Source of the DNA: Thermomonas sp. | GTDB lineage: Bacteria > Pseudomonadota > Gammaproteobacteria > Xanthomonadales > Xanthomonadaceae | DNA length: 64,000 bases | NCBI RefSeq assembly: GCF_029945965.1 | Contig: NZ_JAQSDO010000015.1 | Span: forward strand, 558,001-622,000 | Direction of reading: 5' to 3' | In this document: positions 17,659-64,000 of the stretch, piece after piece | Numbering within the stretch: position 1 is the first letter of the stretch | Layout of the letters: each line of letters begins with the position of its first letter | Notes under the pieces: model-generated | The model's database searches: none | The model's input: the letters and a program-made list of their open reading frames with translations, nothing else | Told to the model about the DNA's origin: nothing | Position numbers and translations under genes: made by a program

Positions 17659-18225
17659 TCAGGTGATGTCCGCGCGTGAATCCGCATGCATTTCGTAGTG
17701 GCTTGGGCGCGGGTTGAGCGTGCCGCACTGGCTGCAGGTACGCAGCGCGTCATTGCGGTAGAACGCTTCGAACACGCGGAAGAAATCCTGTTCGATATCA
17801 ACCAGGTGGAAGAATTCTTCATACACCTTGTGATTGCAATTCACGCAGAACCACATCAGCGCGTCGTCCTCATGCGGCAGGCGCTTGCGCTCGATCACCA
17901 GACCGACCGAGCCGGGCATGCGTTGCGGCGAATGCGGCACGTGCGGTGGCAGGTAGAACATTTCGCCGGCGTGGATCGGGATGTCGCGCGGGGCGAGCAT
18001 CCCTGAAGCGTCGTCTTCCTGGATACGCAGGACCATCTCGCCTTCAATCTGGTAGAACCACTCCGGGCCGTCTTCGAAGTGGTAATCGGTGCGCGCATTC
18101 GGGCCGCCGACGATCATCACGATGTAGTCGCCATCGACGATGCACTTGTTGCCGACCGGCGGCTTGAGCAGGTGGCGGTGTTCGTCGACCCAGACCTGCA
18201 GGTTGATCGGGTTGGGCAGTGACAT
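17659..18225 (-). CDS. 3-hydroxyanthranilate 3,4-dioxygenase
   Basis: Fe(II) cupin enzyme opening the ring of 3-hydroxyanthranilate to ACMS. The 188-residue protein has the cupin metal residues in [17 protein letters not shown], and a third His in VPHSPQR. Its C-terminal rubredoxin-like half contains [13 protein letters not shown] and [10 protein letters not shown] (two CxxC pairs), as in the bacterial NbaC type. The ATG at 18225 has a strong ribosome site (GGAGGAAGCC), and the longer upstream frame is a shadow of the RidA gene. One base separates it from the ACMSD gene. Confidence 0.95.
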
Positions 18226-18236
18226 GGCTTCCTCCG

Positions 18237-18677
18237 TTACGCCTTCAGCGCGGCGATGCACTTCAATTCGATTGCTATTGGCGTCGGCAGCGCGGTGATG
18301 CCGACCGTGGTCCGGCATGGCGCCGTGCTGGCATCGGGGAAGAACTCCTTCCATACCTCGTTGTAGGCCTTGAAGTCGCCAGCCATGTCGGTGAGGTAGA
18401 CGGTCACGTCGACCAGGTCTTCCCAGCGCGCGCCGCTTGCTTCCAGCACCGCGCGCACATTGGCGAATACCACACGTGTCTGCGCCTCGATGTCGTACTT
18501 GCGCACGCGACCATCGGCGAAATATTCATTGCCGCTGATGGCGTCCGACGCCGGATCACGCGGTCCAATCCCGGACAGGAACAGCAGGTCGCCGACGCGC
18601 CGTGCATGCGGATAGCTACCCACCGCCCTGGGTGCCTTGTCGGCATGGATCGTATTGCTTTGGAACTGGTGGCCCAT
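18237..18677 (-). CDS. RidA-family 2-aminomuconate deaminase
   Basis: A 146-residue member of the YjgF/YER057c/UK114 (RidA) family. Its place between genes for aminomuconate-semialdehyde dehydrogenase and HAAO/ACMSD identifies it as the probable 2-aminomuconate deaminase (AmnD/NbaF), which releases ammonia to form 4-oxalocrotonate. Visible family features are [20 protein letters not shown], the arginine-containing end [11 protein letters not shown] and the terminal IELKCIAAL. The ATG at 18677 is preceded by GGGAGG and overlaps the carbonic anhydrase stop by one base. RidA proteins can also hydrolyse 2-aminoacrylate-type imines, so the specific role is by context. Confidence 0.87.
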
Positions 18678-19339
18678 CAGCGATCCTCCCGGTCGCGGCT
18701 GATTGCATCCAGCGCCGCTGCGTATTGCGATTCCAGCACCGCCGGTGCGTTCACATCCAGGCCCAGATCGTGTACTAGACCATCGCGCAAGGTGTAAACC
18801 CAGCCATGTACCGAAAGCTGCTGACCATGTGCCCATGCGTCTTGCACGATGGTCGTCTGGCACACATGGGCCACCTGTTCCAGCGCATTGAGTTCGCACA
18901 GGCGATCGTGGCGAAGGTTCGCGCCATCGATGCTTTCAAGCAGGTCGGCATGTTTGACCGCGACATCGCCGACATGCCGGATCCAGTTGTCGGCCAAACC
19001 GACACGCGCATTGGTGAGCGCCGCATGCACGCCACCGCAGCCGTAGTGGCCGACGACCAGGATGTGCTCGACCTTGAGTACGTCGACTGCGAACTGAATC
19101 ACCGACAGGCAGTTGAGGTCGGTATGCACCACGACATTCGCAATATTGCGATGGACGAACACTTCGCCCGGAGTCAGGTCGACCACCTGGTTGGCCGGTA
19201 CCCGCGAATCCGAGCAGCCGATCCACAGGTACTTCGGCGCCTGCTGCGTCGACAGGCGTTCGAAGAAGTCTGGGTCCTCGCGTGAGACGCGCTCGGCCCA
19301 GTCGCGGTTGTTGCGCAGCAGTTGGTCCAGTGCACTCAT
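18677..19339 (-). CDS. can: Beta-class carbonic anhydrase
   Basis: Zn enzyme interconverting CO2 and bicarbonate. The 220-residue protein has all beta-class ligands and the Asp/Arg dyad: LWIGCSDSRVPANQ (Cys, Asp, Arg) and VVGHYGCGGVHAAL (His, Cys). The N-terminus LDQLLRNNRDWAERV is typical of the E. coli Can clade. The ATG at 19339 begins the conserved N-terminus. The gene is embedded in the kynurenine operon, overlapping the deaminase gene by one base and 25 bp after the dehydrogenase gene. Co-expression with ACMSD, a CO2 producer, is suggested but unproven. Confidence 0.93.
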   Translation of the reverse strand: MSALDQLLRNNRDWAERVSREDPDFFERLSTQQAPKYLWIGCSDSRVPANQVVDLTPGEVFVHRNIANVVVHTDLNCLSVIQFAVDVLKVEHILVVGHYGCGGVHAALTNARVGLADNWIRHVGDVAVKHADLLESIDGANLRHDRLCELNALEQVAHVCQTTIVQDAWAHGQQLSVHGWVYTLRDGLVHDLGLDVNAPAVLESQYAAALDAISRDREDR

Positions 19340-39738: not shown

Positions 39739-40175
39739 CAGATTCCTCTTTCCTCTTTATGGGTCAGGTTCGTTCATTGCTGATCGAATGCCGCCAAGCC
39801 AGTACGCTCAGGCATCCCCCATGCGGGGGTCACTAGATCCGCTTGCGATGGCGTCGAATACCTAGATGCACTCGAAGATCTCAAGTCTACTGGCGGCGTT
39901 CATGGCATTCCGTTCGGCGTCGCACATAGGCGGCTCTGCATACGGCGTACTTCGTCGCTCGGTGCTGGTTGGACTCAACGATCTACAGCAAACACGCGCC
40001 TGAGGCGCATCCTCAGCGTTCGGCCAATGGCGAGATCTCACCAATTGAGAGCGACCCGATGCGAACGATCTGTGCAGACCGGACGTATTGCGTGGCCTGG
40101 CGCACAGACCGTAGCTACAGTCATGGCTCATTCTGCGATGGAGCGCGTGCTTCCCATCACCCAAGGAGACTTCTC
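39739..40175. other. 437-bp region without a supported gene
   Basis: Holds the divergent upstream region of the HPF/RaiA and PRC-barrel genes. A small GC hairpin CCCCC-ATGC-GGGGG is visible near 39815-39830. Frames through it are interrupted or of non-coding composition. Confidence 0.4.
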
Positions 40176-40946
40176 ATGCTACGCAAGCTCGACGATCTGC
40201 ACGAGTTCGCCATCCATGCCAGCGACGGCACGATTGGCCATATCAAGGATTTCTACTTCGATGACCACGCTTGGGTCGTACGATATTTCGTTGTCGAAAC
40301 AGGTAGTTGGTTATCCAGTCGAAAGGTGCTGATCTCGCCAATTGGAACGGGTCGTCCGGACTGGCAAGAGAAAACTCTCCCCGCGGCGATCAAAATGGAT
40401 CAGGTCAGGAACAGTCCCGACATCGATACCGACCAGCCAGTTTCGCGGCAGCACGAAGGCGAGTTCCTCGACTACTACGTTTATCCGTTTTACTGGGCCG
40501 GTCCTGGACTTTGGGGAGCAGGAAATTATCCGAATCCGCATCTGATGGCGATGCCGGAATTCGTGTCGACACCCGCTGTCATATTGCCTGTGTTCGATGA
40601 AGTTCAACCCCCTGTGGATGCGACTGGAGTCCACGACTCCGGCACGCAACACCTCGATCCACACTTGCGTAGCGCCAAGATCGTTGAGGGCTATCGCATA
40701 CACGCAACCGATGGAGAGATCGGTCATGTGCAGGGCCTTCTGTTCGACGATGAGACTTGGGAGATCCGATACCTCATCGTGAACACCAGTAGCTGGTGGC
40801 TGGGGCATCAGGTATTAATCGCGCCGCAATCGATCAAGGGCGTGAGTTGGTTCGACGGCACGGTCTCGATCGACCTGACCCGCGAACAAATGAAGAACGC
40901 ACCGCACTACGATCCTGCGATGCCTTTGGACGATCCCGTTACTTGA
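40176..40946 (+). CDS. PRC-barrel domain protein (two repeats)
   Basis: A 256-residue soluble protein with two PRC-barrel units: DGTIGHIKDFYFDDHAWVVR (residues ~16-35) and DGEIGHVQGLLFDDETWEIR (~180-200), each followed by a TxSWxxxxxVLI strand. A Pro/Gly/Tyr-rich linker joins them. PRC barrels are found in RNA-maturation factors, photosynthetic reaction centres and many stress proteins; no catalysis is implied. The ATG at 40176 has AAGGAGAC. The 3' end overlaps the acetate-kinase stub (opposite strand) by 8 bp. Confidence 0.85.
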   Translation: MLRKLDDLHEFAIHASDGTIGHIKDFYFDDHAWVVRYFVVETGSWLSSRKVLISPIGTGRPDWQEKTLPAAIKMDQVRNSPDIDTDQPVSRQHEGEFLDYYVYPFYWAGPGLWGAGNYPNPHLMAMPEFVSTPAVILPVFDEVQPPVDATGVHDSGTQHLDPHLRSAKIVEGYRIHATDGEIGHVQGLLFDDETWEIRYLIVNTSSWWLGHQVLIAPQSIKGVSWFDGTVSIDLTREQMKNAPHYDPAMPLDDPVT

Positions 40947-41217
40947 AATAACGCTGGAGGAGTTCGATCAGGGCGGCTGCTTCGTGGGCGCGCTTGCTCG
41001 GGTCCGTTTCACCCACAACGTGTTCCGATAGGTGGCCCGTCATGACTTTGATTATGAGGCCATGCATTGCACCGTCTCCGGTCGACACGGTTATCTCGAA
41101 ACGATCATCACGTTGGATCAGTACACCGGGATCCCTGTCCTGCCGCCATACGTAAGCCGCCGCCTTGAGCGTCGCTGAGCCGAGGTTGAGCGCGAGTACT
41201 TGCTGCTGAGGCTTCAT
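40939..41217 (-). CDS. Acetate-kinase-like N-terminal stub (truncated)
   Basis: A 92-residue protein opening [21 protein letters not shown]. This matches the first beta strand and phosphate-binding Asn-x-Gly-Ser of acetate/propionate kinases (~400 residues). It ends before the catalytic Arg, His and Asp regions, at a stop overlapping the PRC-barrel gene. The start overlaps the phosphoketolase stop (ATGA), exactly where ackA follows xfp in other bacteria. It is therefore best viewed as a remnant of a phosphoketolase-acetate kinase operon, or a small regulatory domain; catalytic activity is not expected. Confidence 0.65.
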
Positions 41218-43598
41218 GGGTGTCCAGCCAGACTCCATTTCCAGTTGCGGATTTCCGGCATGTCCTGCCCATGCTCGTTGATGTACTGTCGGTGCTCGAC
41301 CAGCTTGCCCTTGAGCTTCTGCTTGAGGTAGATACCATGCTCGCCCGCCTGCGGCACCCGGTCGATCACGTCCATCGCCAGGTGGAAGCGATCCATGTCG
41401 TTCAGTACCGTCATGTCGAACGGCGTGGTGACGGTGCCTTCTTCCTTGTATCCGCGCACGTGGATGTTGCCGTGGTTGGTGCGGCGATAGGTCAGGCGGT
41501 GGATCAGCCACGGATAGCCGTGGAAGGCAAAGATGACCGGCTTGTCGGGTGTGAACAGTCCGTCGAAATCAGCATCGCTCATCCCGTGTGGATGCTCGCT
41601 CTGCGGCTGCAGCCGCATCAGGTCGATGACATTCACGACCCGGATCTTCAGCTCGGGCAGATGTTCGCGCAACAGCGCAACTGCGGCGAGAGTTTCCAGC
41701 GTGGGCACGTCGCCGGCGCACGCCATCACGACATCGGGCGCAGCTTCCTGATCGTTGCTCGCCCAAGGCCAGATGCCGGCCCCCTGTGTGCAGTGTTTCA
41801 CCGCCTGATCCATCGTCAGCCACTGTGGCGCTGGGTGCTTGCCCGCGATCACGACATTGACGTAATGGCGGCTGCGCAGGCAGTGATCCATCACCGAGAG
41901 CAGGCAGTTCGCATCCGGCGGCAGGTAGACACGCACGACCTCGGCCTTCTTGGTCATGACGTGGTCGATGAAACCGGGATCCTGGTGTGTGAATCCGTTG
42001 TGGTCCTGGCGCCAGACGTGCGAGGCCAGCAGATAGTTCAGCGAGGCGATTTTGCGTCGCCACGGCAGGTGCGCCGTGACTTCCAGCCATTTGGCATGCT
42101 GGTTGAACATCGAATCGATGATGTGGATGAAGGCTTCGTAGCAGTTGAACAACCCGTGCCGTCCGGTCAGCAGATAGCCTTCCAGCCAGCCTTCACACTG
42201 GTGCTCGCTGAGCATTGAGTCCACCACGCGTCCGCTGGGCGCGAGAAATTCGTCATTGGGCGCGGTGGCAGCATCCCATTGGCGATCGGTCGCTTCAAAC
42301 AGCGCGCCCAGTTTGTTGGAGAGCGTCTCGTCCGGTCCAAACACCCGGAAATTGCGTGCTTCCTGGTTCAACGTCGCAACATCGCGCAGAAAGGGTCCGA
42401 GTACGCTGGTGTCGCCGATGCCGAGGATCCCCGGCGCGGGCACTTCCACGGCATAGTCGCGGAAATCCGGCATTCTCAGATCGCGCAGCAGAATGCCGCC
42501 ATTGGCGTGCGGATTGGCGCCCATCCGCCGCTCACCGGTGGGAGCGAGTTCGGCCAGCTCGGGCTTGAGGCGTCCGTTTCCGTCGAACAATTCGTCGGGC
42601 CGGTAGCTGCGCATCCAGTCTTCCAGCAGTGCGAGATGCTCGGGATGCGTGGCGGGATCTGACAGCGGCACCTGATGGGAGCGGAAGGTACCTTCAATCT
42701 GCAGGCCGTCGACGATCTTCGGCCCCGTCCAGCCCTTCGGGGACTTGAGCACGATCATCGGCCAGCGCGGGCGAGTGAGGTCGCCGTCGACCCTGGCCCG
42801 TTGCTGGATCGCCTTGATCTCCGCCACGACAGTGTCGAGCGTCGCGGCCATCGCCTGGTGCATCAATGCAGGATCATCTCCCTCGACGAAGTAGGGCGTC
42901 CAGCCGTAGCCGCGCAGCAGCTGTTCCAGCTCCTCATGGGTGATGCGAGCCAGAATTGTCGGGTTGGAGATCTTGTAGCCGTTCAGGTGCAGGATCGGCA
43001 ACACCACGCCGTCCGTCACGGGATTTAGGAACTTGTTGGAATGCCAAGCGGTCGCCAGTGGCCCGGTTTCGGCTTCGCCATCGCCGACCACACAGGCGAC
43101 GACAAGATCGGGATTGTCGAACACCGCACCGAACGCGTGACTGAGCGAGTAGCCGAGTTCGCCGCCCTCATGGATCGACCCTGGCGTCTCTGGCGAGGCG
43201 TGGCTCGGGATACCACCGGGAAACGAAAACTGCTTGAAGAGCTTCTGCAGCCCGGTCTCGTCCTGGCTGATCTCTGGATAGATCTCGCTGTAGGTGCCTT
43301 CGAGATAGGTATTGCCGACCACTGCCGGGCCGCCATGACCAGGGCCGGAAATATAGATCATGTCCAAGTCGTATTGCTTGATGATCCGGTTCAAATGCAC
43401 GTAGATGAAGTTTTGTCCCGGCGTCGTGCCCCAATGGCCGAGCAGCATCGCTTTCACATCTGACAACTCGAGCGGACGTTTCAGAAGAGGATTGTCGCGA
43501 AGGTAGATCTGTCCGACCGAAACATAGTTGGTTGCACGCCAATAAGCGTTCATCCGCTCCAGCAGTTCCGGCGTCAGCGCCGTCAGTGGGCTATTCAC
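41214..43598 (-). CDS. xfp: Phosphoketolase (xylulose-5-P / fructose-6-P type)
   Basis: TPP enzyme of 794 residues that splits xylulose-5-phosphate or fructose-6-phosphate to acetyl phosphate and a sugar phosphate. Family blocks include [37 protein letters not shown]-like residues, [20 protein letters not shown] and the C-terminal [17 protein letters not shown]. The ATG at 43598 has GAGGAAG upstream. Acetyl phosphate would normally go to acetate kinase, but the adjacent ackA is only a stub, so phosphotransacetylase or a distant kinase must act. Typical of anaerobic/stress carbon handling in proteobacteria. Confidence 0.96.
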
Positions 43599-43655
43599 GG
43601 TCGGACTTCCTCACTATTCGTATGGGTGGATCTGTGGGGATGGCACGTGGGAATC

Positions 43656-44987
43656 TCACAGCCATCCATTGGTAAAGCCTGCTCGCCGCAGTCCGGTCTT
43701 GATGTGAGGACAAGCGCGCATCAGTCGCCACGGCAGCCCGGAGCGAAAGTTTTCGCACATCACCACCACTGGCCCCAGATTGATGCCGAAGTGGTATTCG
43801 GAGCACCAGTGAAGACTGGTGTCCGACTCGATGGAATAGGTCGGATTGATGCTGCAGCGAAAACAGTGTTCTCCGCTCGCTTGGGGATAGGCGTCCTGCA
43901 GATGCCGGATCGCCGGCAGCACGATTTCTGGCGCGAATGGCAGCGACGCCGCGACGGCCCAGGGAGCGATGGTGCCGTCGTCGGGACCATACGGTGCGCC
44001 GCGGGCGATGTAGTCGAAAAAGGTCCGATCGATGCCATCGATCCGCCGCGTGGTCCAGCCTGGACCATCGCTCGCCGTCAGTCCCCAGAAATTGGCGCCA
44101 TAGCCCACGAACTCCAGCGGATTACGAATTGCGTAGGCCCGTTGGGCGTACGTCGCGCGGCGGCTGTTTTCGAAGTAGTCGATGCCTTTTCCGCGCGCGA
44201 ATGCATCCTGGATGCCACGCAGGTCGAGCCAGCAGTGCGAGAACTGATGAAGGAATAGAGGACCTCCATAAAGGTACTCGTACCCATCGACCGCCTTCCA
44301 TTGATAAGTCGATGCCCACGCCGTGTAGCTCTCCGCCGGTAACGGATGCGTCGGCGAGCCTAGCCCCAGCACGTACAGCAGCAGCGCCTCGTCATAGCCT
44401 TGCCAGCGGTAGGGGAGGAAGCCACTTTCTGGCTTCCAGCCGTGAGTCAGGGTCGCGCCGCCATTGCAGGCCCACTGCCAGTCGACCCGTTGGTACAGCA
44501 GCTCCGCGAGATTCCGGATTTCTTGTTCCTGCTCGTCGTCCTGATCGAAGTAACTCGCGGCGGTCAGCATGCCGGCCAGCAGGAAGCCGGAATCGACGGT
44601 CGACAACTCGCAACGCCCGGCGCGGCGACCCGTCGTCATGTCCAGGAAGTGGTAATAAAAGCCCTTGTACCCCGTTGCATCGGGTGTCGCATCGTGGGGG
44701 CTGTTTCGAAAGAAGCGCAGCACCGTGAGTGTGCGATCGACGGCATCGGCACGCGAGATCCAGCCACGCGCGATGCCAACTGGATAACAGGCCAGCGAGA
44801 AGCCCACGGCCGCGATGCTGGCGTCGGAGCCGCGCTGCGACTTATCGGCAACCAGACCGTTGAGCGAACTGGTCTGCTGCAGGAAGTACTGGAAGGAGCG
44901 GCGCTGCATCGCATCCAGCCTTGTTTCGCCGAAGTCTGTCAGAGCAGAATCGGTATTGCCGGGTGGCGTTGATGTCACATCGTTCAT
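43656..44987 (-). CDS. Glucoamylase-like family protein (COG5368; GH144-related)
   Basis: A 443-residue soluble protein resembling the COG5368/glycoamylase family that includes GH144 endo-beta-1,2-glucanases. Features are the alpha/alpha barrel segments DMTTGRRAGRCELSTVDSGF in split form, AGMLTAASYFDQDD, HGWKPESGFLPYRWQGYDEA, and YGGPLFLHQFSHCWLDLRG. No signal peptide is evident, so action may be cytoplasmic or need another export route. The start at 44987 lacks a clear ribosome site, and a Met at about residue 27 is an alternative. It lies 57 bp upstream of phosphoketolase on the same strand. Confidence 0.82.
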   Translation of the reverse strand: MNDVTSTPPGNTDSALTDFGETRLDAMQRRSFQYFLQQTSSLNGLVADKSQRGSDASIAAVGFSLACYPVGIARGWISRADAVDRTLTVLRFFRNSPHDATPDATGYKGFYYHFLDMTTGRRAGRCELSTVDSGFLLAGMLTAASYFDQDDEQEQEIRNLAELLYQRVDWQWACNGGATLTHGWKPESGFLPYRWQGYDEALLLYVLGLGSPTHPLPAESYTAWASTYQWKAVDGYEYLYGGPLFLHQFSHCWLDLRGIQDAFARGKGIDYFENSRRATYAQRAYAIRNPLEFVGYGANFWGLTASDGPGWTTRRIDGIDRTFFDYIARGAPYGPDDGTIAPWAVAASLPFAPEIVLPAIRHLQDAYPQASGEHCFRCSINPTYSIESDTSLHWCSEYHFGINLGPVVVMCENFRSGLPWRLMRACPHIKTGLRRAGFTNGWL

Positions 44988-50445: not shown

Positions 50446-50844
50446 ATGAAACACACAATATTGAGAAAGGCAGGATTGGCACTTTTGATTACCGGAATCA
50501 CTTTTGCGCTTCCCGCCTGTGCTCAGACGCATGGTGGGACGCGTGCGATGGGTATGAGCGAGAACAGTGCAACTGACGCGCAGCAGATGTCGGAAATGAT
50601 GCACAGCATGTCAGGTGAAATGATGAACATGTCCGGCATGATGGACAAGGGTGACATGAGCCCCGATGCCATGAAGAAAATGGCGAATCAGATGAAGCAA
50701 ATGAGCAGCATGATGGAAAACATGTCGGGCATGATGGGTAAGGGCGGGATGATGGGCTCCGGGCACCACATGCAGATGGATCAGATGCACAAGCAGATGG
50801 ATCAGATGCACAAGGACATGCCTGTGACACCCACGAAGAAATAG
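50446..50844 (+). CDS. Methionine-rich exported protein
   Basis: A 132-residue protein. The N-terminal signal peptide ends around ALPACAQT, where either signal peptidase I cleavage after ACA or lipid attachment at Cys is possible. The mature part is extremely Met-rich (about a quarter of residues), with repeated MSEMM, MMNMSGMM, MENMSGMMGKGGMMG and the tail MQMDQMHKQMDQMHKDM. Met/His runs bind Cu(I)/Ag(I), and the gene lies in a metal-related region, so periplasmic copper sequestration is a fair inference. The ATG at 50446 has AAGGAATAAATC. Antisense frames here are artefacts. Confidence 0.82.
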   Translation: MKHTILRKAGLALLITGITFALPACAQTHGGTRAMGMSENSATDAQQMSEMMHSMSGEMMNMSGMMDKGDMSPDAMKKMANQMKQMSSMMENMSGMMGKGGMMGSGHHMQMDQMHKQMDQMHKDMPVTPTKK

Positions 50845-50928: not shown

Positions 50929-51015
50929 ATGCTGCAGAAAAGCATGCTGAAACTACTTCCGATATTGGATGCGAAGTATCCGCAGCAACTGGAGCGGCTC
51001 ACGCGAACGCAATGA
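50929..51015 (+). CDS. Possible short ORF coupled to the giant fusion gene
   Basis: A 28-codon frame, MLQKSMLKLLPILDAKYPQQ then LERLTRTQ, whose TGA overlaps the ATG of the next gene (ATGA). The frame is open back to a GTG at 50893. Composition looks protein-like, but the ribosome site is weak. It may set translation of the downstream gene, whose own ribosome site is poor. Confidence 0.4.
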   Translation: MLQKSMLKLLPILDAKYPQQLERLTRTQ

Positions 51016-54000
51016 CAAGAATTGCGTCAGCATTAGGAGATCCAGACTTGGAGTCAGAAAAAAAGATCGTCTTGGTCACCGGGTCAAATGGACGCATTGG
51101 CACCGCGGTGATGGAGCGCCTGGCGGGCCGCTTCAGTGATGTCGTGGGTTTTGACCGCGAGGCGCCAAGTCCCGCGCCGCCGGGTTGCACGCAAATCCCT
51201 GTCGACATCACGTCCGATGAGAGCCTGCAGGAAGGGCTGCGCATCCTGCGCGAGCATCACGGAACCCATATCGCATCTGTCGTGCATTTGGCTGCCTACT
51301 ACGATTTCCTCGGCAAGCCGAGTCCCAAGTACGACGAGGTCACGGTCGAGGGCACGCGGCGCCTGTTGCGCGCATTGCGCAACGGGTTCAAGGTCGAACA
51401 GTTCATTTTCGCCAGTACGATGCTGGTGCACCGGCCGGGCGAGCCGGGCCAGTTCATCGACGAGGACTGGCCCTTGGGTCCGACCTGGGCTTACCCGGAG
51501 TCGAAGGTCCGCACCGAAGAGGTCATCCACTTCGAGCGCGGCGAGATACCCGCAACGATCCTGCGCATGGCCGGCGTCTACGACGACTCGTGTCATTCGC
51601 CGCCGTTGGCGCATCAGATCCAGCGCATCTATGAGGGTCAGTTCGCCGCTCACCTGTATTCCGGCGAAGTCTCGCATGGTCAGGCATACGTCCATTTGGA
51701 CGATGTCGTGGATGCCATCGAGCACGCCGTGGACCACCGCGCGCAGCTGCCGCCGGAGACGCCGATCCTGATCGGCGAGCCGGTGACGTTGAGCTACGAC
51801 GAATTGCAGCACACGTTCATGCGGCTGATCCACGGGGACTCGCACGAGACACGCAGCGTGCCCGCGCCAGTAGCCAAGCTCGGTGCCTGGCTGCAGGACC
51901 AGATCCCGGGCCAGGACACTTTCATCAAACCGTGGATGATCGACAGGGCCAACGACCACTACGCCCTGGACATCACCCGCGCACGCAATCTGCTTGACTG
52001 GGTGCCCGTGCGTGCGCTACGGGAGACATTGCCCAAGATGGTGTCGGCGCTGAAGGCCGACCCGGTTGGCTGGTATCGGGAGCAGGGCCTCGAGCCGACC
52101 AAGGCGATGCTGAAAGGCCGTTACCCCGACCACGAAGATGCAGAAGCCGCCCTGACTGGCGACAGTCCGCCGGCGGCAGCCATCGGCACGCATGCGCACC
52201 ACGCCGGCGCTGATGCAAAAGCGGAGCAACCCGCGCCCGACGGCGCGCACCTCACCCACAGTTGTCCGATGCACAGCGAAGTTTGCCAGTCTTCGCCGGG
52301 TAATTGCCCGCGATGCGGCACGACGCTGGAGCCGACCGCACAGCCGGCGGATGCTGAGTACACCTGTCCGATGCATCCGGAAGTGATGGCCAGTGAACCG
52401 GGACCCTGCCCGAAATGCGGCATGCCGCTGGAGGTGCGTCAGCCGCCACCCAGCAACCATGACAGCAGTGGCGGCCACGCCGCTCAGACCGCTCACGAAG
52501 GTCACGGTGGTCACGAGGTTCATGACAGTCAGGAGGCCCACGACGGGCACGATGGCCACGGAAGTCACCAAGGCCACCAAGGCCACGGCATGCCCGGTGC
52601 TCAAGCTGGTGAAGTCGACATGATGGTCACAGGCCATCGAAAAATGCTGTGGCCGCACTATCTCGCCATGATGCTTGGCTTCTGGCTGCTGACCAGTCCG
52701 TTCACGCTGGGCTACATGAGTGATTTCGCGCCCGACGCCAACCAGTTGCGGGTCATGGCCGAGCGCGGGCTGTCGTCGTTCGAACTGCGCAACCTGCTGA
52801 TGAGCTGGAGTGACGTACTCAGCGGTGTTCTGGTGATCGCTTTCAGCATGTTGTCGGCCAACGCATGGCGTCGCCATCCCTGGGCGCAGTGGGCCAATGC
52901 CTTCGTCGGCGTCTGGCTGCTGTTCGCACCATTGGTGTTCTGGACGCCATTGCCCGAGGCCTATGCCAACGGAACACTGGTCGGTGCTTTCGTGATTGCG
53001 CTGTCGGTGCTGATCCCGATGATGCCTGGCATGAGCATGGCCAGCATGATGGGCGGCCCGGATGTCCCGCCCGGCTGGGCATACACACCATCGAGTTGGA
53101 TGCAGCGCATGCCGATCGGCTTGCTTGCGATGATTGGATTCCTCACTTCGCGTGTCCTCGGGGCCTATCAACTCGGCCACCTCGACGCGGTGTGGGAACC
53201 GTTTTTCGCCGGTAGCGGCGCCATGAAGGGCATGATGAACGGCACCGAGACCATTATCACTTCGGACGCATCCAAGGCCTGGCCGATTGCCGATGGCGCC
53301 CTTGGCGGGATTGTCTACATGGCCGAGCTGGTGATGATCTGGATGGGTGGAAAAACCCGCTGGCGCACCATGCCGTGGATGGTGCTGGCGCTGGCGATCC
53401 TGGTCCTGCCTCTGGGCGTTGTGAGCGTCTACTTTGTCATCATCCAACCGATCGTGATCGGTACCTGGTGCACGTTGTGCCTGATTGCCGCGCTCGCCAT
53501 GTTGGTGATGATTCCGTATTCGTTGAACGAATTCGTGGCGATGGGCCAATTCATGACCGATGCGCACCGCAACGGTAAACCCTTCTGGCGCACGTTCTGG
53601 ACCGGTGATGCGATGGAAGGCGGCAGTGCGGACACAGCCAAAGGGTTGGTCGCGACGACCGGCGAAAAGATCGCCCAGGCCACCCGCGGCGTCACCTATC
53701 CGTGGACGCTGCTGCTCAGCATCGCCATTGGCGTGTGGCTTACCTTCACGCGGCTGAGCTTCGACAGCTCAGGCGCGATGGCCAACAGCGATCACCTGAT
53801 TGGCGCATTGGTGGTGACCTTCTCGATCATGGCCTTCGCCGAGGTCGGACGCGCCATTCGATTCATCAACATCCCGTTGGGCGCGTGGTTGATCGCTGCG
53901 CCGTGGCTGCTCGACGGCATCGCCTCGCCGCTTGCAGCCTGGAATGGCGTGATCAGCGGCGTTGTGGTCATCGCACTGGCGCTTCCGCGCGGTCGGATCA

Positions 54001-54038
54001 AGGATTCGTATGCGGGCTGGGACCGGTACATCGTTTAA
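51012..54038 (+). CDS. SDR–metal-binding–SPW–VKOR-like four-part fusion protein
   Basis: A 1008-residue multidomain protein. Residues ~15-340 form an extended SDR/epimerase domain with the NAD motif VTGSNGRIG, a Ser in FASTML and the catalytic YPESK (161-165). Residues 416-441 and 449-474 are two heavy-metal-binding modules (SCPMHSEV...CPRC and TCPMHPEV...CPKC). Residues 483-526 are a His/Gly-rich linker. From ~545 on it is membranous: a first SPW-repeat unit (~545-660), a region resembling vitamin K epoxide reductase with WCTLC at 819-823 (the only cysteines there), and a second SPW-like unit (~896-995). The whole suggests a membrane quinone/thiol redox device with a cytosolic or periplasmic NAD-dependent partner and metal sensing. 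The start (ATG 51012) overlaps a short ORF. Confidence 0.88.
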   Translation: MTRIASALGDPDLESEKKIVLVTGSNGRIGTAVMERLAGRFSDVVGFDREAPSPAPPGCTQIPVDITSDESLQEGLRILREHHGTHIASVVHLAAYYDFLGKPSPKYDEVTVEGTRRLLRALRNGFKVEQFIFASTMLVHRPGEPGQFIDEDWPLGPTWAYPESKVRTEEVIHFERGEIPATILRMAGVYDDSCHSPPLAHQIQRIYEGQFAAHLYSGEVSHGQAYVHLDDVVDAIEHAVDHRAQLPPETPILIGEPVTLSYDELQHTFMRLIHGDSHETRSVPAPVAKLGAWLQDQIPGQDTFIKPWMIDRANDHYALDITRARNLLDWVPVRALRETLPKMVSALKADPVGWYREQGLEPTKAMLKGRYPDHEDAEAALTGDSPPAAAIGTHAHHAGADAKAEQPAPDGAHLTHSCPMHSEVCQSSPGNCPRCGTTLEPTAQPADAEYTCPMHPEVMASEPGPCPKCGMPLEVRQPPPSNHDSSGGHAAQTAHEGHGGHEVHDSQEAHDGHDGHGSHQGHQGHGMPGAQAGEVDMMVTGHRKMLWPHYLAMMLGFWLLTSPFTLGYMSDFAPDANQLRVMAERGLSSFELRNLLMSWSDVLSGVLVIAFSMLSANAWRRHPWAQWANAFVGVWLLFAPLVFWTPLPEAYANGTLVGAFVIALSVLIPMMPGMSMASMMGGPDVPPGWAYTPSSWMQRMPIGLLAMIGFLTSRVLGAYQLGHLDAVWEPFFAGSGAMKGMMNGTETIITSDASKAWPIADGALGGIVYMAELVMIWMGGKTRWRTMPWMVLALAILVLPLGVVSVYFVIIQPIVIGTWCTLCLIAALAMLVMIPYSLNEFVAMGQFMTDAHRNGKPFWRTFWTGDAMEGGSADTAKGLVATTGEKIAQATRGVTYPWTLLLSIAIGVWLTFTRLSFDSSGAMANSDHLIGALVVTFSIMAFAEVGRAIRFINIPLGAWLIAAPWLLDGIASPLAAWNGVISGVVVIALALPRGRIKDSYAGWDRYIV

Positions 54039-54098: not shown

Positions 54099-54134
54099 AT
54101 GCAACCTAGCCGAATGGAGTTTGCTCCATCATGA
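54099..54134 (+). CDS. Tiny leader ORF coupled to the methyltransferase gene
   Basis: An 11-codon frame, MQPSRMEFAPS, with GGAG 6 nt before its ATG. Its TGA overlaps the ATG of the next gene. The next gene has no ribosome site of its own. Confidence 0.45.
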   Translation: MQPSRMEFAPS

Positions 54135-54796
54135 AAGAACATTTTGCGCACTCCGGAGCTTGGGGCCTGGCCGTGATCATGATCGTGGTGGCGTCCTGGC
54201 TGTTCTATCGCTACTTCGCCCCGAAAAACTGGCGCGAGTGGGTAGGTGCGGGAGTGGTCCAGGCATTTATCATCGCGCTATACGCGGAGATGTACGGCTT
54301 TCCCCTCACAATCTACCTGCTGGCGAGGTTTTTCGGGCTCGACCGCACCGGTCTCAATGCCAACCTCTGGTCGTCACTTGTCGGCTTCGGCGAGGCGGGC
54401 ATGCTGATCTCGATGCTGCTCGGTTACGCATTGCTGTTCGTCGGCATCGGCATCTTCATCCAGGGCTGGCGCGAGCTCTATCGCGCGCGGCAGCAAAACC
54501 TGCTGGTGACGAATGGCCTGTACGGGTTGGTGCGGCATCCCCAGTACACGGGATTGTTCATCGGGCTGTTCGGCGAAGGCGTGGTTCACTGGCCAACGGT
54601 GTTCTCGGTCGGACTGTTTCCGGTGATCGTGCTGGTCTACTTTCTGCTCGCGCGTAGCGAAGAAAAAAAGATGGTCGAGCAGTTCGGCGAGCAATACCTG
54701 GCATATCGACGGCAGGTGCCTATGTTCATTCCCCGATCCGGCGGCTGGCGGCTACTGGTGCAGCGTTCCAGCGGAAGGCAAGGCAGCAGCGAATGA
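54131..54796 (+). CDS. Isoprenylcysteine / phospholipid methyltransferase-family membrane protein
   Basis: A 221-residue membrane protein with about five hydrophobic segments and the SAM-binding C-terminal signature of the PEMT/ICMT family: TNGLYGLVRHPQYTGLFIG and later EEKKMVEQFGEQYLAYRRQV. These enzymes methylate lipids or prenylated thiols; the bacterial substrate is usually unknown. The ATG at 54131 is coupled to the 11-codon leader ORF. It lies 92 bp after the fusion gene on the same strand and probably belongs to the same unit. Confidence 0.88.
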   Translation: MKEHFAHSGAWGLAVIMIVVASWLFYRYFAPKNWREWVGAGVVQAFIIALYAEMYGFPLTIYLLARFFGLDRTGLNANLWSSLVGFGEAGMLISMLLGYALLFVGIGIFIQGWRELYRARQQNLLVTNGLYGLVRHPQYTGLFIGLFGEGVVHWPTVFSVGLFPVIVLVYFLLARSEEKKMVEQFGEQYLAYRRQVPMFIPRSGGWRLLVQRSSGRQGSSE

Positions 54797-58421: not shown

Positions 58422-60812
58422 TCAGGCTTTTTCCGATACTGGTTCTTGGTGAGGCAGTGGAACGATGCGCAGCCGTAGGGCATTCGAGATCACCGATACC
58501 GAACTCAGGCTCATCGCAAGTGCTGCTACTACTGGGCTCAACAACCAGCCAGTCCATGGATAGAGCAGACCGGCAGCCAATGGAATGCCTAGAGTGTTGT
58601 AGACGAAGGCGAAAAACAGGTTCTGACGGATATTCCGGACCGTCGCCCGCGATAGCGCGCGTGCCTGGACGATCTTCCTTAGGTCACCTTTGACCAGGGT
58701 CAGCTTGGCGCTTTCCATCGCGATGTCGGTACCTTGACCCATGGCAATTCCAACGTCAGCTGCAGCAAGTGCAGGCGCATCGTTAACGCCGTCACCCGCC
58801 ATCGCAACGCGCCGACCACTGGCTTTGAGTTCTTCGACGATGCGTGCCTTGTCGGCAGGCTGTACATCAGCCTCGACGCGTTCGATGCCAAGTTTCTTGG
58901 CCACGGCATTGGCCGTCGTCGCGTTGTCACCTGTCAACATGATGACTTCCACGTCTTCGGCACGCAGCGCTTTCAACGCCTCTGCGGTCGTGTCCTTGAT
59001 GGGATCTGCTACCGCGAGCAACCCCGCTAGCGCATCGTTGATGGCCAGGAACATCACTGTCTTGCCGTCGCGCCTTAGTGCGTCGGCCTGAGCAGCGGCA
59101 CTATCATTGATACTGATATTCCGGGCGTCCATCAGGGCCCGGTTTCCCAGCGCGGCGGTCGTTCCTTCCAGCTCAGCGCTTACGCCTTGGCCAGTATGCG
59201 ACTGGAAATTCGCAGTCTCGGGAAGTGACAGTTCGCGATCCTTGGCACCTGCCAGGATTGCTGCTGCGAGCGGATGTTCGCTCCCACGCTCAAGCGCAGC
59301 AGCCATGCTGACGATCTTGTTGTCGTCTTCATCCCCAAGCGCCACGACATCGGTCAGCTTCGGCTTGCCAAGGGTGAGCGTGCCGGTTTTGTCGACAACC
59401 AGTACGTCGATTTTTTCCAGAGTTTCGATTGCTTCAGCGTCGCGGAACAATACGCCCATCTGCGCGCCACGGCCGGTCGCAACCATGACTGAAATTGGAG
59501 TCGCCAGACCCAGCGCACAAGGACAGGCGATGATCAACACGGCCACCGCATTGATCAGGGCAAAAGCCAGCCGAGGATCTGGCCCCAACCATGCCCAAAG
59601 TGCAAATGTAAGCACTGCGGCCAGTACCACTGCCGGCACGAACCAGTTTGCGACTCGATCAGCCAGCCGCTGCAGCGGCGCTCGCGTGCGTTGGGCATTT
59701 GCCACCAGCTGGACAATTTGTGCCAACAGCGTTTCGCTGCCCACTTTTTCCGCCTGCATGACCAGCGAGCCAGTCTGGTTGAGGGTGCCGCCAGTAAGCG
59801 GATCATCGGCAGTCTTTTCGACGGGCATGGGTTCTCCCGTCAACATTGACTCATCGACGCTGCTGCGTCCTTCGATGACGACACCATCAACCGGAATCTT
59901 CTCGCCGGGGCGCACACGCAATCGGTCGCCCTTTTCGACGCTCTCCAGCGGCACATCGTGCTCGTCGCCGTCCTTCCCGATGCGGCGTGCGGTCTTAGGG
60001 GCCAGGCCGAGCAGGGCGCGTACCGCATCACTGGTGCGGTGCCGGGCACGAAGCTCCAGCCACTCACCCAACAAGACCAGCGCGACGATCACGGCAGCGG
60101 GTTCGAAGTACAAGCCAATGCGTCCGTCCATGCCACGGAAGGCAGGCGGGAAGAGGCCCGGCATCAGCAGTGCCACGACGCTATAGCCATAAGCGACACC
60201 GACGCCAAGGCCGATCAACGTATACATGTTCGGTGATCGGTTGCGCAGCGATGTCCAGAAGCGACTGAAGAACGCAGAGCCGCCCCACAACACCACGACC
60301 GATGCCAGCACCAGTTCCGCCCACGGGCTCCAGGCCGGCGCCTGCCAAAGTCCCAGGTGCGGGGCCATGGCAAGGATGACGACGGGAAGCGCCAGCAATG
60401 ATGCGGTCCAGAACTTGCGGCCTACGGATGTGATTTCGTTCTTCGCCTCGCTGTCGTCCTCGCTGGGCAGCTCAGGCTCCAGTGCCATGCCGCAAATCGG
60501 GCACGCGCCAGGACCTTCCTGCCGGATTTGCGGATGCATCGGGCAGGTGTAGATCGTGCCCTGCGGTACAGGCACTTCTTCCTTGCCTTTGGAGGACAGC
60601 TTGGGTGACAGATATTTGTCGGGATCAGCCTGAAAGCGCTCGAGGCAGCGTGCCGAGCAGAAATGAAATGCGTCCCCACCGTGTTGTGCGTGGTGCGGTG
60701 TTTTGTCGGGATCCACCGACATGCCACAGACTGGATCAATGACCTTGTGCCTCTCACTCGGTGCAACCTGTCCACTGTGGTCAGGCGGGTTGCTGTTGTC
60801 TTTGGTGGTCAT
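58422..60812 (-). CDS. copA: Copper-translocating P1B-type ATPase (CopA-like) with YHS and metal-binding N-terminus
   Basis: A 796-residue Cu(I) export ATPase. The N-terminus lacks the usual HMA CxxC domain. Instead it has a YHS domain ([18 protein letters not shown]) and a module [20 protein letters not shown] like those in the fusion protein. Core motifs are TGEPMPVEK, the Cys-Pro-Cys in [22 protein letters not shown] (phosphorylated Asp), [17 protein letters not shown], and the C-terminal [15 protein letters not shown] typical of class 1B-1. The ATG at 60812 overlaps the MerR stop (ATGA). Cu(I) is the best guess; Ag(I) is plausible. Confidence 0.95.
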
Positions 60813-61207
60813 GATTTATCGCTCGACAGGGCATTGAGAATGGGACATGCCGCAAGAGCGCCATGCCCTGGGCACACCTGGATTAGCTGATGCAGGCCAT
60901 CGCGGATTCGGGACATTTCCGCGAGACGGATATCGACGTCGACAAGTTTCGCCTCGGCGACTGCCTTGAGCTCGCCCATGTCTTCCTCGCGGTGATCCGA
61001 GAGTGCCAATAGCTCCCTGATTTCATCCAACGTGAATCCGAGCGTCTTGGCACGCCGCACGAATTGCAGGCGCGCGATATCGGGTATCTGGTAGCGCCGA
61101 TAGCCAGACGCTTGGCGATCAGGCTCCGGCAGCAAGCCTTGCCGCTCGTAGTAGCGGATCGTGTCGATATTGACGTCGCACCGCCTGGCGAGTTCACCGA
61201 TTTTCAT
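60809..61207 (-). CDS. MerR-family metal-responsive regulator (CueR-like)
   Basis: A 132-residue MerR protein: [22 protein letters not shown] helix-turn-helix (split here), dimer helix, and a C-terminal [13 protein letters not shown] with two Cys that could bind metal. The Cys spacing differs from canonical CueR, so metal identity (Cu, Ag, Zn, Cd) is uncertain; the downstream Cu ATPase favours copper. It overlaps the ATPase gene by 4 nt. The promoter at 61240-61271 with 19-bp spacing is the expected target. Confidence 0.92.
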
Positions 61208-61275: not shown

Positions 61276-61770
61276 TTATTTCGTTGGAACCGACTTAAGG
61301 TCAGGTGCCCCCAGTGGGGTCGGATTGGCCTCCAGATCAGCAATCAGTCCCTTCATTTCACCAATCTCGCGTACCTGCGCTTTGATGATGCCGTCCGCCA
61401 GTTCACGCACGCGAGGGTCGCGGATATGGGCGCGACTGCTGGTGAGAATGGCAATGGAGTGATGCGGGATCATTGCGCGCATGTAGGAGATATCGTCGAC
61501 GGTCTGCTGGCTTCTAACCAGCCAGAGCGATAACGCGAATACAGCAAAACTGCTTGCAAGGATCGCGATGTTCATCGACTTGTTCTCGTACATCTTGAGC
61601 ATGAACAACAGCATCACTGCCGCCATCGATGCGCCCATCACGAACGCCATATAGAGGCGGGTTTCGCTGAAAAACACGTGGTCGCTGGTGAAGGTGTTGA
61701 GATACATCAGAACGAACATCACTAGCGTAGAGGTCGCTATCATCGCGCCGAACTTCATGTATTTGGTCAT
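61276..61770 (-). CDS. DUF305-family membrane protein
   Basis: A 164-residue protein with about three N-terminal hydrophobic segments (GAMIATSTLVMFVLMYLNT and AFVMGASMAAVMLLFMLK among them). A soluble C-terminal part carries the DUF305-like YMRAMIPHHSIAILTSSRAH and helical EIGEMKGLIADLE. DUF305 proteins are often found with copper genes and contain Met/His metal sites. The ATG at 61770 is 52 bp after the cytochrome c gene on the same strand; it is probably the last gene of the copA-copB unit, ending at the merR promoter. Confidence 0.85.
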   Translation of the reverse strand: MTKYMKFGAMIATSTLVMFVLMYLNTFTSDHVFFSETRLYMAFVMGASMAAVMLLFMLKMYENKSMNIAILASSFAVFALSLWLVRSQQTVDDISYMRAMIPHHSIAILTSSRAHIRDPRVRELADGIIKAQVREIGEMKGLIADLEANPTPLGAPDLKSVPTK

Positions 61771-61822: not shown

Positions 61823-62545
61823 TCAATGCGGATGGCCGTCATCCTTGTGTGCATCTACAGTCCCCGAAACCGGATGAGATTCGCGCGTGCCATCCGCATG
61901 GGTATGCATTCTCCCTTGCTCGGCATCCATGCCATGTGAGTTTGCAGCCGCCCCTGCCTCATCACTCGCACCGTGACCAGTCATGCCTTTCATGCCATCC
62001 ATGCCTTCATGCATGTGATCCTCATCCTGTGCCGGCGGCTTTCCGCCCAGCTGTGCGTATTGAGCTGGCGTCATGCCACGGAACTTTTGCAGGAAGGCCA
62101 CCATGTTCCAGATCTGTTCGTCGGTGTGCGTCTTGCCCCAAGCCGGCATCGCGGTCAGCTTGATGCCATGCTTGATGATCCAGAAATCGTGTTTCGGATC
62201 CAGCGCGACCTCTTTGCTGAGGTCTGGAGGCATCGGATACAGGCCGGGGCGGATTTCGGTGTCGTCTGCGCCGGGTGATAGGTGGCAGCCGGTGCACATT
62301 GCGCTGTAGTTCACCGCACCCAGGCGGATGCGACTGGCGTCTTCCAGGTCGGGGACCTGAATATCGTGCGCGCGACTTTCAATCGATCGATGGCGAAGCA
62401 TCTCAATTGCGGCACGGGTGGGGGCCCAATGTGGATCGTCGGCGCCGATGTTGTAGAGACCGGACCAGGCGAATATGGCCGCGCCAGCAGCCAGTACGGC
62501 CAATACGATGAAGGTCATGACGACATGGTAAGTATGCGATTTCAT
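61823..62545 (-). CDS. Membrane-anchored cytochrome c with Met/His-rich tail
   Basis: A 240-residue protein with an N-terminal hydrophobic segment (VVMTFIVLAVLAAGAAIFA) and a class I cytochrome c domain: haem motif MCTGCH and axial Met in TAMPAWG. After residue ~175 comes a low-complexity tail of Met, His, Gly and Glu (HMHEGMDGMKGMTGHG), a metal-binding style also seen in CopB here. It is 11 bp downstream of copB, with good ribosome site GGAGAAACCC. Likely an electron carrier of the copper-oxidising envelope system. Confidence 0.88.
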   Translation of the reverse strand: MKSHTYHVVMTFIVLAVLAAGAAIFAWSGLYNIGADDPHWAPTRAAIEMLRHRSIESRAHDIQVPDLEDASRIRLGAVNYSAMCTGCHLSPGADDTEIRPGLYPMPPDLSKEVALDPKHDFWIIKHGIKLTAMPAWGKTHTDEQIWNMVAFLQKFRGMTPAQYAQLGGKPPAQDEDHMHEGMDGMKGMTGHGASDEAGAAANSHGMDAEQGRMHTHADGTRESHPVSGTVDAHKDDGHPH

Positions 62546-62556
62546 GGGTTTCTCCG

Positions 62557-63813
62557 TCAGAACCAGATGCGGATGCCAGCGACGAGCTGGGTGTCTTGAG
62601 CGCCTTCACCAGCGGCGCGGGTGAAGTTGGCGGTATTTCCGAACTTGCGTGACCAGACGACGCCGATGTAAGGCGCGAACTTGCGGGTAATCTCGTAGCG
62701 CAGCCGGATGCCAATATCCAGATCGGACAGGCCCGAGCCGATGCCACGGGCAGGATCGTCCTTGCCGTAGAAGCTGGCTTCGGCATTTGGCTGCAGGATC
62801 AATCGCTGCGTGAACAGCAACTCGTAATCCGCCTCCACGCGCAGTGCGCTACGCCCGGACTGCCCCAGATATGCCGTGGCTTGGAGATCGAACCAGTAAG
62901 GCGCAAGGCCCTGCACGCCCACGGCCAGCCAATCCCGTGTGGGGCCATCAGCCATGTCATGGCGCACGCCGACTTGTGCACCCCAGTACGTCGCGATCGC
63001 ATGGTTCCATAGGGCTTCGGCACGCGTTGCACCCAGGCGGCCACCGCTGCGTTCACCGTCGAGTTTGAGCCACAGCTTGTGACGATCCGCTCCATACCAA
63101 GCTTGCGCATTGATCGCTTGGGCAGTACCTGCATCATTGTCGCGAAGTTCCAAATTGTCGAACAGGACATACAGGCGCTTTGCGTTGTCGGACATGTCCA
63201 TGCCGTGCATCGGTCCGTAGTCGACACCATCGGAGTAGTCCGGGTCGCGGGCATCTGGCGGGGGAGCGCCTCCTTGCATGTTCATCGCTCCCATGTCCAT
63301 CGTGGAGTGATCCATCCCTTCCATTTTGGAGTGATCCATTCCCTCCAACTTCAAATGGTCCATTCCTTCCATTTTGGAGTGATCCATCCCTTCCATCGTT
63401 GAATGGTCCATTCCTTCCATCTTCGAATGATCCATTCCCTCCATTTTTGAGTGGTCCATCCCCTGCATTTTTGAGTGATCCATGGGTGCCATGGGAGGAG
63501 CTAGTTTTTTCTTTCCGTCTTTGTTTGGTTGCCCGAGACATTGAGCTGCGTATTGCTTGCTTGAGGGCTTGCCCTTGGCCAAAAGTTGCTGACAGGTTGG
63601 GTTTCGTGCGTCTGGGGTGGCTGCCCGCTTCTGCTTCGCGGCTGCCTTTTTCGCCGGCGGATTCATCGGCATTTGCATGCCCGGCATCGATTGTGTGTGC
63701 TGCGTGTGGTCGGTCGCCTGTGCAAATGCCAATGTGGGCACGGCCATCACCAAGCAGCATGCAAGATTCGCCGTCAGAGCTGGCGCCGAGAGTCTTCGCG
63801 CGAACGCACTCAT
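62557..63813 (-). CDS. copB: Copper resistance protein CopB
   Basis: A 418-residue outer-membrane protein. A signal peptide at ~1-40 is followed by MPGMQMPM and a Lys/Ala linker, then eight near-perfect octapeptide repeats (MDHSKMEG) from about residue 111 to 172. The C-terminal domain ends in beta-strand-rich SRKFGNTANFTRAAGEG and the terminal QLVAGIRIWF typical of CopB. The ATG at 63813 overlaps the multicopper oxidase stop (ATGA). The repeats are far more uniform than usual Met/His linkers and likely bind copper. Confidence 0.93.
   Translation of the reverse strand: MSAFARRLSAPALTANLACCLVMAVPTLAFAQATDHTQHTQSMPGMQMPMNPPAKKAAAKQKRAATPDARNPTCQQLLAKGKPSSKQYAAQCLGQPNKDGKKKLAPPMAPMDHSKMQGMDHSKMEGMDHSKMEGMDHSTMEGMDHSKMEGMDHLKLEGMDHSKMEGMDHSTMDMGAMNMQGGAPPPDARDPDYSDGVDYGPMHGMDMSDNAKRLYVLFDNLELRDNDAGTAQAINAQAWYGADRHKLWLKLDGERSGGRLGATRAEALWNHAIATYWGAQVGVRHDMADGPTRDWLAVGVQGLAPYWFDLQATAYLGQSGRSALRVEADYELLFTQRLILQPNAEASFYGKDDPARGIGSGLSDLDIGIRLRYEITRKFAPYIGVVWSRKFGNTANFTRAAGEGAQDTQLVAGIRIWF
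63298..63483 (-). repeat. 24-bp tandem repeats encoding MDHSKMEG
   Basis: Eight units inside copB, each 24 bp, reading MDHSKMQG, MDHSKMEG twice, MDHSTMEG, MDHSKMEG, MDHLKLEG, MDHSKMEG, MDHSTM. In-frame, so copy number can change without a frameshift. Confidence 0.9.
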
Positions 63814-64000
63814 GACACCACCACTTCGCGGAACATGCCTGCTTCCATGTGATAGAGCAGGTGACAGTGGTAAGCCCAGCGCCCCAACGCATCGGCATTG
63901 ACCAGGTAGCTGATGCGCTGCGCTGGCTGCACCATGATGGTGTGCTTGCGCACCTGGAATTCGCCCGAAGGGCTTTCCAGCTCGCTCCACAGACCATGCA
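63810..64000 (-). CDS. copA: Multicopper oxidase CopA, C-terminal end (gene runs off the window)
   Basis: The frame open from the right window edge ends at 63810 and reads as the last ~63 residues of a CopA-type multicopper oxidase. It shows the type 1 and trinuclear copper ligands in YHCHLLYHMEAGMF and the ending REVVVS. The 4-nt overlap with copB is typical of copAB operons. The start and the N-terminal domains lie outside the window. Name conflict: this is the oxidase CopA, distinct from the CopA ATPase at 58.4-60.8 kb. Confidence 0.92.
   Translation of the reverse strand, partial: HGLWSELESPSGEFQVRKHTIMVQPAQRISYLVNADALGRWAYHCHLLYHMEAGMFREVVVS

Follow-up and report, generated by a model that had tools for sequence, protein, structure and literature searches.

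An SDR/SPW-VKOR-SPW fusion protein of Thermomonas sp. belongs to a conserved, transferable family without the VKOR loop cysteines

The window analysed here, a stretch of 64,000 nucleotides from a Thermomonas sp. genome, carries one open frame at 51012-54038 (+), with ATG at 51012 and a stop at 54038, that encodes 1008 residues (Table 1). Pfam and structure modelling order its parts as an extended SDR, two HMBD modules, a His-rich linker and an SPW-VKOR-SPW membrane part. Four Pfam families score above their curated cut-offs: Epimerase (PF01370, residues 20-254, E 7.9e-20), HMBD (PF19335, two stretches, E 3.9e-13, 49.5 bits vs. a cut-off of 23.6), SPW (PF03779, three stretches, E 1.4e-22, 80.4 bits vs. 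31.5) and VKOR (PF07884, residues 701-837, E 2.5e-19, 70.2 bits vs. 27.5). A sequence-only reading had described such a single frame, with SDR motifs, two CPMH..CPxC metal modules, a His-rich linker, SPW helices and a VKOR-like region, and had proposed an HMM search for each domain; that search recovers all of them, and the motifs, modules, linker and coordinates are correct as first described. As relatives from many phyla repeat the same domain order, this order is not a product of chance.

Table 1. Positions of the fused gene, its parts and neighbouring genes in the window, with the starts of CxxCH genes at six other loci.
Feature	Position	Strand	Basis or detail
Fused gene, 1008 aa	51012..54038	+	open frame, Pfam
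Extended SDR unit, ~residues 19-358	51066..52085	+	Pfam Epimerase 20-254, column counts, PDB profile match 4id9
First heavy-metal-binding module (CPMH..CPxC), ~residues 416-440	52257..52331	+	Pfam HMBD; Cys 418, 425, 432, 435
Second heavy-metal-binding module, residues 450-474	52359..52433	+	Pfam HMBD best stretch
His-rich linker, probably disordered, residues 479-534	52446..52613	+	sequence; pLDDT <50 for 479-538
N-terminal SPW bundle, four helices, residues 547-667	52650..53012	+	Pfam SPW, model
VKOR-like unit, residues 701-837; helices 696-720, 761-777, 788-815, 821-853	53112..53522	+	Pfam VKOR, model
Predicted periplasmic loop, residues 721-760, without VKOR loop cysteines; T745 at Cys51, S751 at Ser57	53172..53291	+	
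CxxC, C820-C823	53469..53480	+	sequence, column counts
C-terminal SPW bundle, residues 898-991	53703..53984	+	Pfam SPW best stretch, model
ICMT/PEMT-type membrane methyltransferase, next gene	54131..54796	+	Pfam
YHS/HMBD copper-type P-type ATPase	58422..60812	-	Pfam, NCBIfam
MerR-family regulator, metal not settled	60809..61207	-	
DUF305, CopM-like match below cut-off	61276..61770	-	
c-type cytochrome	61823..62545	-	
Copper resistance protein CopB	62557..63990	-	Pfam CopB, E 8.6e-87
CxxCH gene starts at other loci	L009 11061, L021 10668, L022 6146, L023 10994, L030 10680, L031 8764		

The company of SPW (PF03779) with VKOR or epimerase domains is noted in a passage of PMC8078820, where the SDR/SPW-VKOR-SPW architecture is already catalogued; the SPW passage of that source gives no function, cysteine state, fusion history or copper context. 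Among the titles and abstract openings searched in the open-access literature none concerns this type of protein, nor did a function for it turn up there; in databases its plasmid members are named 'vitamin K epoxide reductase family protein' or 'NAD-dependent epimerase/dehydratase family protein'. A hypothetical VKOR, of this or another family, and a cardiolipin-synthase-like gene are mentioned on Sulfobacillus metal-resistance plasmid DNA in another source (PMC6803676).

The SDR unit contains T23GxxGxxG, D48, S135, Y161xxxK165 and a conserved FIKPWMID stretch at 304-311. Column counts over 80 SDR sequences find the catalytic S135, Y161 and K165 kept in every one, Asp at position 48 in 78 and Glu in 2, and the glycines of TGxxGxxG nearly as constant (G24 80/80, G27 80/80, G30 77/80). 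An acidic residue at this position suggests NAD rather than NADP, and the earlier call of an intact, NAD-dependent SDR is upheld by these counts, NAD use being read from sequence. The nearest profile match in the PDB is 4id9 (E 4.7e-18). The unit resembles solved extended SDRs and NAD-dependent epimerases (PF01370) in its Rossmann motif, catalytic S-Y-K and acidic D48, but is only 16-23% identical to the solved structures among the matches listed, and differs from them in its own conserved FIKPWMID motif and its membrane partner.

Relatives were collected by scanning one genome per species; the best 80 of 241 were kept and, with the window, make up 81 loci. Both separate and fused homologues, a survey of which had been suggested from the sequence, occur within this set: a single fused gene in 26/81 loci and separate SDR and membrane genes no more than 2 kb apart in 40/81, or 66/81 for the two arrangements together. 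The other 15/81 are truncated where a contig stops, spread the membrane part over several frames (e.g. L031, L057, L059, L070, L075, L078) or show an SDR alone. Of the 40 two-gene loci all but four (L049, L051, L063 and L065) have the SDR upstream on the same strand at a distance of -304 to +112 bases, the overlaps being partly an effect of first-start calls. All four genomes with a solitary SDR at the locus (L043, L073, L081, L083) have a match to the membrane profile at another place: for L043 and L073 it belongs to a further, complete module (L037 and L066), for L083 it is a membrane part, and for L081 it is a partial match only.

SDR and membrane distances co-vary, with a Mantel r of 0.679 over 65 loci (0/2000 permutations above 0.161) and 0.686 over the 40 two-gene loci. 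On the membrane tree the fused and split states require 10 changes, at least 8 of them forced by supported branches, and fusion or fission has therefore happened repeatedly. Pairing is frequent, not strict: 138 plasmid records contain the membrane part vs. 115 with the SDR (E up to 1e-50). On Natrinema and Candidatus Manganitrophus plasmids (L112 5833-8348 and L113 7911-12229), the membrane part is accompanied by a GH15 glycoside hydrolase and a classical SDR, and the extended SDR was not found within either stretch. L076 (9117-11613) contains two copies in a row, first a full SPW-VKOR-SPW gene and then one whose VKOR and SPW parts are separate genes, and on Paraburkholderia fungorum pBIL (L121, 3855-6482) the membrane part occupies two frames, so this copy may be broken.

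The membrane profile was matched in 17/398 genomes of the phylum; 6 of these, counting that of the window, match it from end to end. A survey of 59 relatives of the window genome (0/24 in the same genus) gave no further full copy, and the matches there were to HMBD, to general SDRs or, in one genome (G031), to the SPW part; the nearest relatives of the window's module come from Thiogranum and betaproteobacterial MAGs. Among 72,556 plasmid records the 138 with the membrane part, 130 of them matching over at least 80% of its length, include 73 from Sinorhizobium and also archaeal Natrinema. Phages gave no match at E 1e-5, and E. coli genomes no DNA match. In S. meliloti 1021 the SDR lies on pSymB at 17968-19047 (NC_003078.1), and S. 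meliloti strain R14 has the gene in fused form; no tie was found between SMb20013, a putative oxidoreductase of S. meliloti, and the module gene. Horizontal transfer is the simplest reading of this distribution, and the module is a real, conserved, transferable family present across bacteria and in some archaea.

Residues 536-1008 were modelled as twelve long helices (pLDDT 88.1, pTM 0.83), which we read as a predicted 4-4-4 arrangement of SPW, VKOR and SPW. Among the Foldseek matches to the PDB that were listed (50 of 142), only VKORs exceeded a probability of 0.2, at 0.38-0.63 (best 4nv5_B, 0.63), with E-values of 0.9-3.7 and none below 0.8, so the fold match alone is not significant. Whether structure prediction would make residues 700-850 VKOR-like had been left as a decisive point: four predicted helices at 696-853 fall in the VKOR stretch, the Foldseek E-values do not secure the fold, and the homology is supported by profile, at the Pfam score given above. 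Searched with the membrane-part profile, PDB sequences gave no hit at E up to 1. An hhalign comparison to two canonical VKORs, with E 8e-4 but a probability of 24%, aligns their CxxC with that of the family, Ser57 with S751 and Cys51 with T745. In 68/68 sequences K/R density is higher in the predicted cytoplasmic loops (0.129 vs. 0.044), a bias that places the SDR and HMBD parts inside and the CxxC outside. Modelled at full length, the protein scores poorly (pTM 0.44), with no trusted SDR-membrane interface; conservation is spread over both membrane faces and does not single out a functional one.

VKOR enzymes are defined by two cysteine pairs. In these proteins electrons pass through loop cysteines, and quinone is bound near the outer face (in part from PMC4555120). 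The present family is like the VKOR family (PF07884; Synechococcus VKOR, 3kp9/4nv5) in profile, four predicted helices, CxxC and a serine at the Ser57 position; in contrast to 3kp9/4nv5, its VKOR unit sits between SPW bundles and is tied to an SDR, it has no thioredoxin domain (Pfam finds no thioredoxin-fold domain in the window protein), some members carry SxxA in place of CxxC, and the loop pair is missing. The WCTLC cysteines, C820 and C823, are indeed the only ones in residues 536-1008, and the loop pair that had seemed absent from the window protein is absent outright, with no Cys at 721-760 in 68/68 sequences (window included) or in 85/85 of a wider set. This wider set comprises 67 sequences plus 18 plasmid and other sequences, without L047 and the two-frame L121.

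CxxC is kept in 65/68 of the unselected sequences, with SxxA in L044, L046 and L047, and in 76/85 of the wider set, with SxxA in the other 9/85; the latter is not a population rate, because the added sequences were partly picked as sphingomonad-looking (3/68 in the unselected set). All nine SxxA sequences come from Sphingomonadales. Four of them (L046, L114, L116, L117) are 99-100% identical, whereas one (L123) shares just 43-45% identity with the remaining eight. CxxC and SxxA are exchanged twice on the tree, which counts changes and not their direction, and a single SxxA clade is rejected (AU p 0.002) in a test that involves the long branch of L123 and quick trees; one loss followed by recombination, or misplacement, would also fit the same SxxA in both groups. 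L046 (Qipengyuania citrea) and L047 (a 'Rhodospirillaceae' MAG) have identical loop and SxxA segments and the same neighbour pattern, and the MAG may be misnamed.

The SxxA forms are under strong purifying selection, with dN/dS of 0.063-0.095 for pairs with dS >0.3, as against 0.052-0.159 for nine CxxC pairs (simple Nei-Gojobori estimates, excluding the near-identical pair L120/L089, whose dS of 0.003 gave a meaningless 1.35). In their whole length L118 and L119 contain one cysteine each, L115 and L123 two each. Invariant in 85/85 sequences, SxxA forms included, are S751, S754, P758, D761, R783-W784-R785, Q812, P813 and G817. Proteins with SxxA cannot run a CxxC cycle, and since they remain under such selection thiol chemistry is not the whole function. 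The 'thiol device' of the sequence-only reading is not supported as a general mechanism, given 9/85 sequences without CxxC and purifying selection wherever divergence permits a test; retention in 76/85 of those sampled argues that thiol chemistry matters in most members.

The window's own metal genes occupy 58.4-64.0 kb, no more than 10 kb from the fused gene, and encode a copper-type ATPase, a MerR regulator, DUF305, a c-type cytochrome and CopB. Nine metal queries found matches in 22/79 module loci (28%) vs. 2/40 control stretches (Fisher p 0.002), or 23.7 vs. 3.1 metal-positive loci per Mb, and in 19/79 vs. 1/40 without the MerR query. The test favours module loci because its queries came from the window, module plasmids and L037, itself a module locus; the controls were taken at round coordinates in 9 Pseudomonadota genomes, with phyla not matched to the module loci, and L047 was dropped as a copy of L046. 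Copper or heavy-metal genes adjoin the module gene in 11/13 hand-picked annotated plasmid stretches, e.g. CopC, CopD, four-helix copper proteins, CueR, multicopper oxidase and heavy-metal ATPases; the exceptions are an S. meliloti stretch with sugar-transport genes and a ZIP metal transporter, and an S. paucimobilis stretch with cardiolipin synthase, Hsp20 and a Crp/Fnr regulator.

Within about six genes of the module the recurrent families are an ICMT-like methyltransferase (10 loci, window included), copper-type ATPase (8), classical SDR (8) and DUF302 (7). No fixed operon partner besides the SDR emerged from 262 neighbouring frames (131 + 131; up to two per side, 110-900 aa, L047 left out), which belong to diverse families, the commonest reaching 6/131 and 5/131 among the families listed (25 per set). 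Just upstream of the window's gene, 50446-50844 encodes a small, very Met/His-rich protein that looks exported by eye, its sole Pfam match falling below cut-off and NCBIfam giving none at 1e-5; the 448-residue frame at 56957-58303 matches nothing in Pfam at E 0.1 or NCBIfam at 1e-5. A PRC-barrel protein, a phosphoketolase and a putative glucoamylase are encoded at 39969-44987, and glucoamylase-like and phosphoketolase-like families recur, by eye, beside some other module loci. In six alphaproteobacterial loci the membrane gene ends at, or shortly before, the start of a gene with a CxxCH motif, by eye a cytochrome c.

Only 32/68 loci carry HMBD motifs and 36/68 lack them, so metal sensing through HMBD is not a core feature of the family, and metal sensing as the core role was ruled out on this count. 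Of the earlier suggestion of a possible response to metal, a link to metal genes is supported.

We tentatively favour, while holding it somewhat less probable than its negation, an NAD(H)-linked SDR system that is tethered to the membrane, has a quinone-like pocket derived from VKOR and uses thiol chemistry as an optional step. The extended SDR would act at the cytoplasmic face and be linked, within one protein or through adjacent genes, to the 12-helix SPW-VKOR-SPW unit. The VKOR bundle of this unit may retain a binding pocket for an isoprenoid or quinone-like ligand and may offer the SDR this ligand or its redox state. Where present, CxxC would add direct periplasmic thiol/disulfide-quinone exchange without a loop-cysteine relay, a step that appears optional because some lineages have dropped CxxC; the HMBD and His-rich parts would be an accessory metal buffer or sensor, and horizontally moving copper/stress islands would carry the module. 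NAD specificity, ligand, electron direction and SDR-membrane coupling are what we infer. Direct hydride transfer between SDR and CxxC is hard to picture, as the latter is periplasmic and the former cytoplasmic. A bolder form of this proposal, to which we give roughly one chance in three or slightly less, moves the VKOR fold outside thiol chemistry altogether: a transmembrane quinone-like sensor or ligand holder would steer, across the membrane, a cytoplasmic NAD(H) dehydrogenase, and CxxC, which this tree would have discarded two times, would be a remnant or an extra that the protein can do without.

Rather unlikely, to a similar degree, is a DsbB/VKOR-type thiol:quinone oxidoreductase, in which CxxC directly oxidises a periplasmic thiol, electrons pass to quinone and the SDR provides a link to NAD(H). 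The CxxC of 65/68 sequences, aligned with the canonical one, S751 at the Ser57 position and the CxxCH genes adjoining the six alphaproteobacterial membrane genes would all suit it; a loop pair missing in 85/85, the nine sequences without CxxC, with their purifying selection, and the absence of a thioredoxin-fold domain do not, the canonical VKORs L107/L108 running, by eye, into a DsbA-like part. Still less probable is a role of the SDR in envelope modification, as an enzyme acting on sugar nucleotides or polyprenyl sugars, with the membrane part mainly an anchor and holder of a lipid substrate. Among the profile and fold matches listed, most solved relatives are nucleotide-sugar epimerases and dehydratases, and GH15 genes recur nearby, but this fold is common to extended SDRs, so the match says little about substrate, and the invariant residues of the VKOR stretch are not expected of a mere anchor. 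A membrane part that transports or senses metal, with the SDR as redox gate, is very improbable: the HMBD motifs of 32/68 loci and the metal-gene neighbourhood speak for it, against the 36/68 loci without the motif, no Pfam match to a transporter family and Foldseek probabilities of at most 0.09 for transporters among the matches listed (50 of 142).

The window's protein belongs to a large mobile family in which one VKOR cysteine pair is gone from every sequence examined and the other from some lineages, with selection strong. Since the pairs have been lost under such selection, the role of a VKOR bundle without thiols becomes directly testable. With this family, an unstudied oxidoreductase also joins the contents of copper and stress islands.
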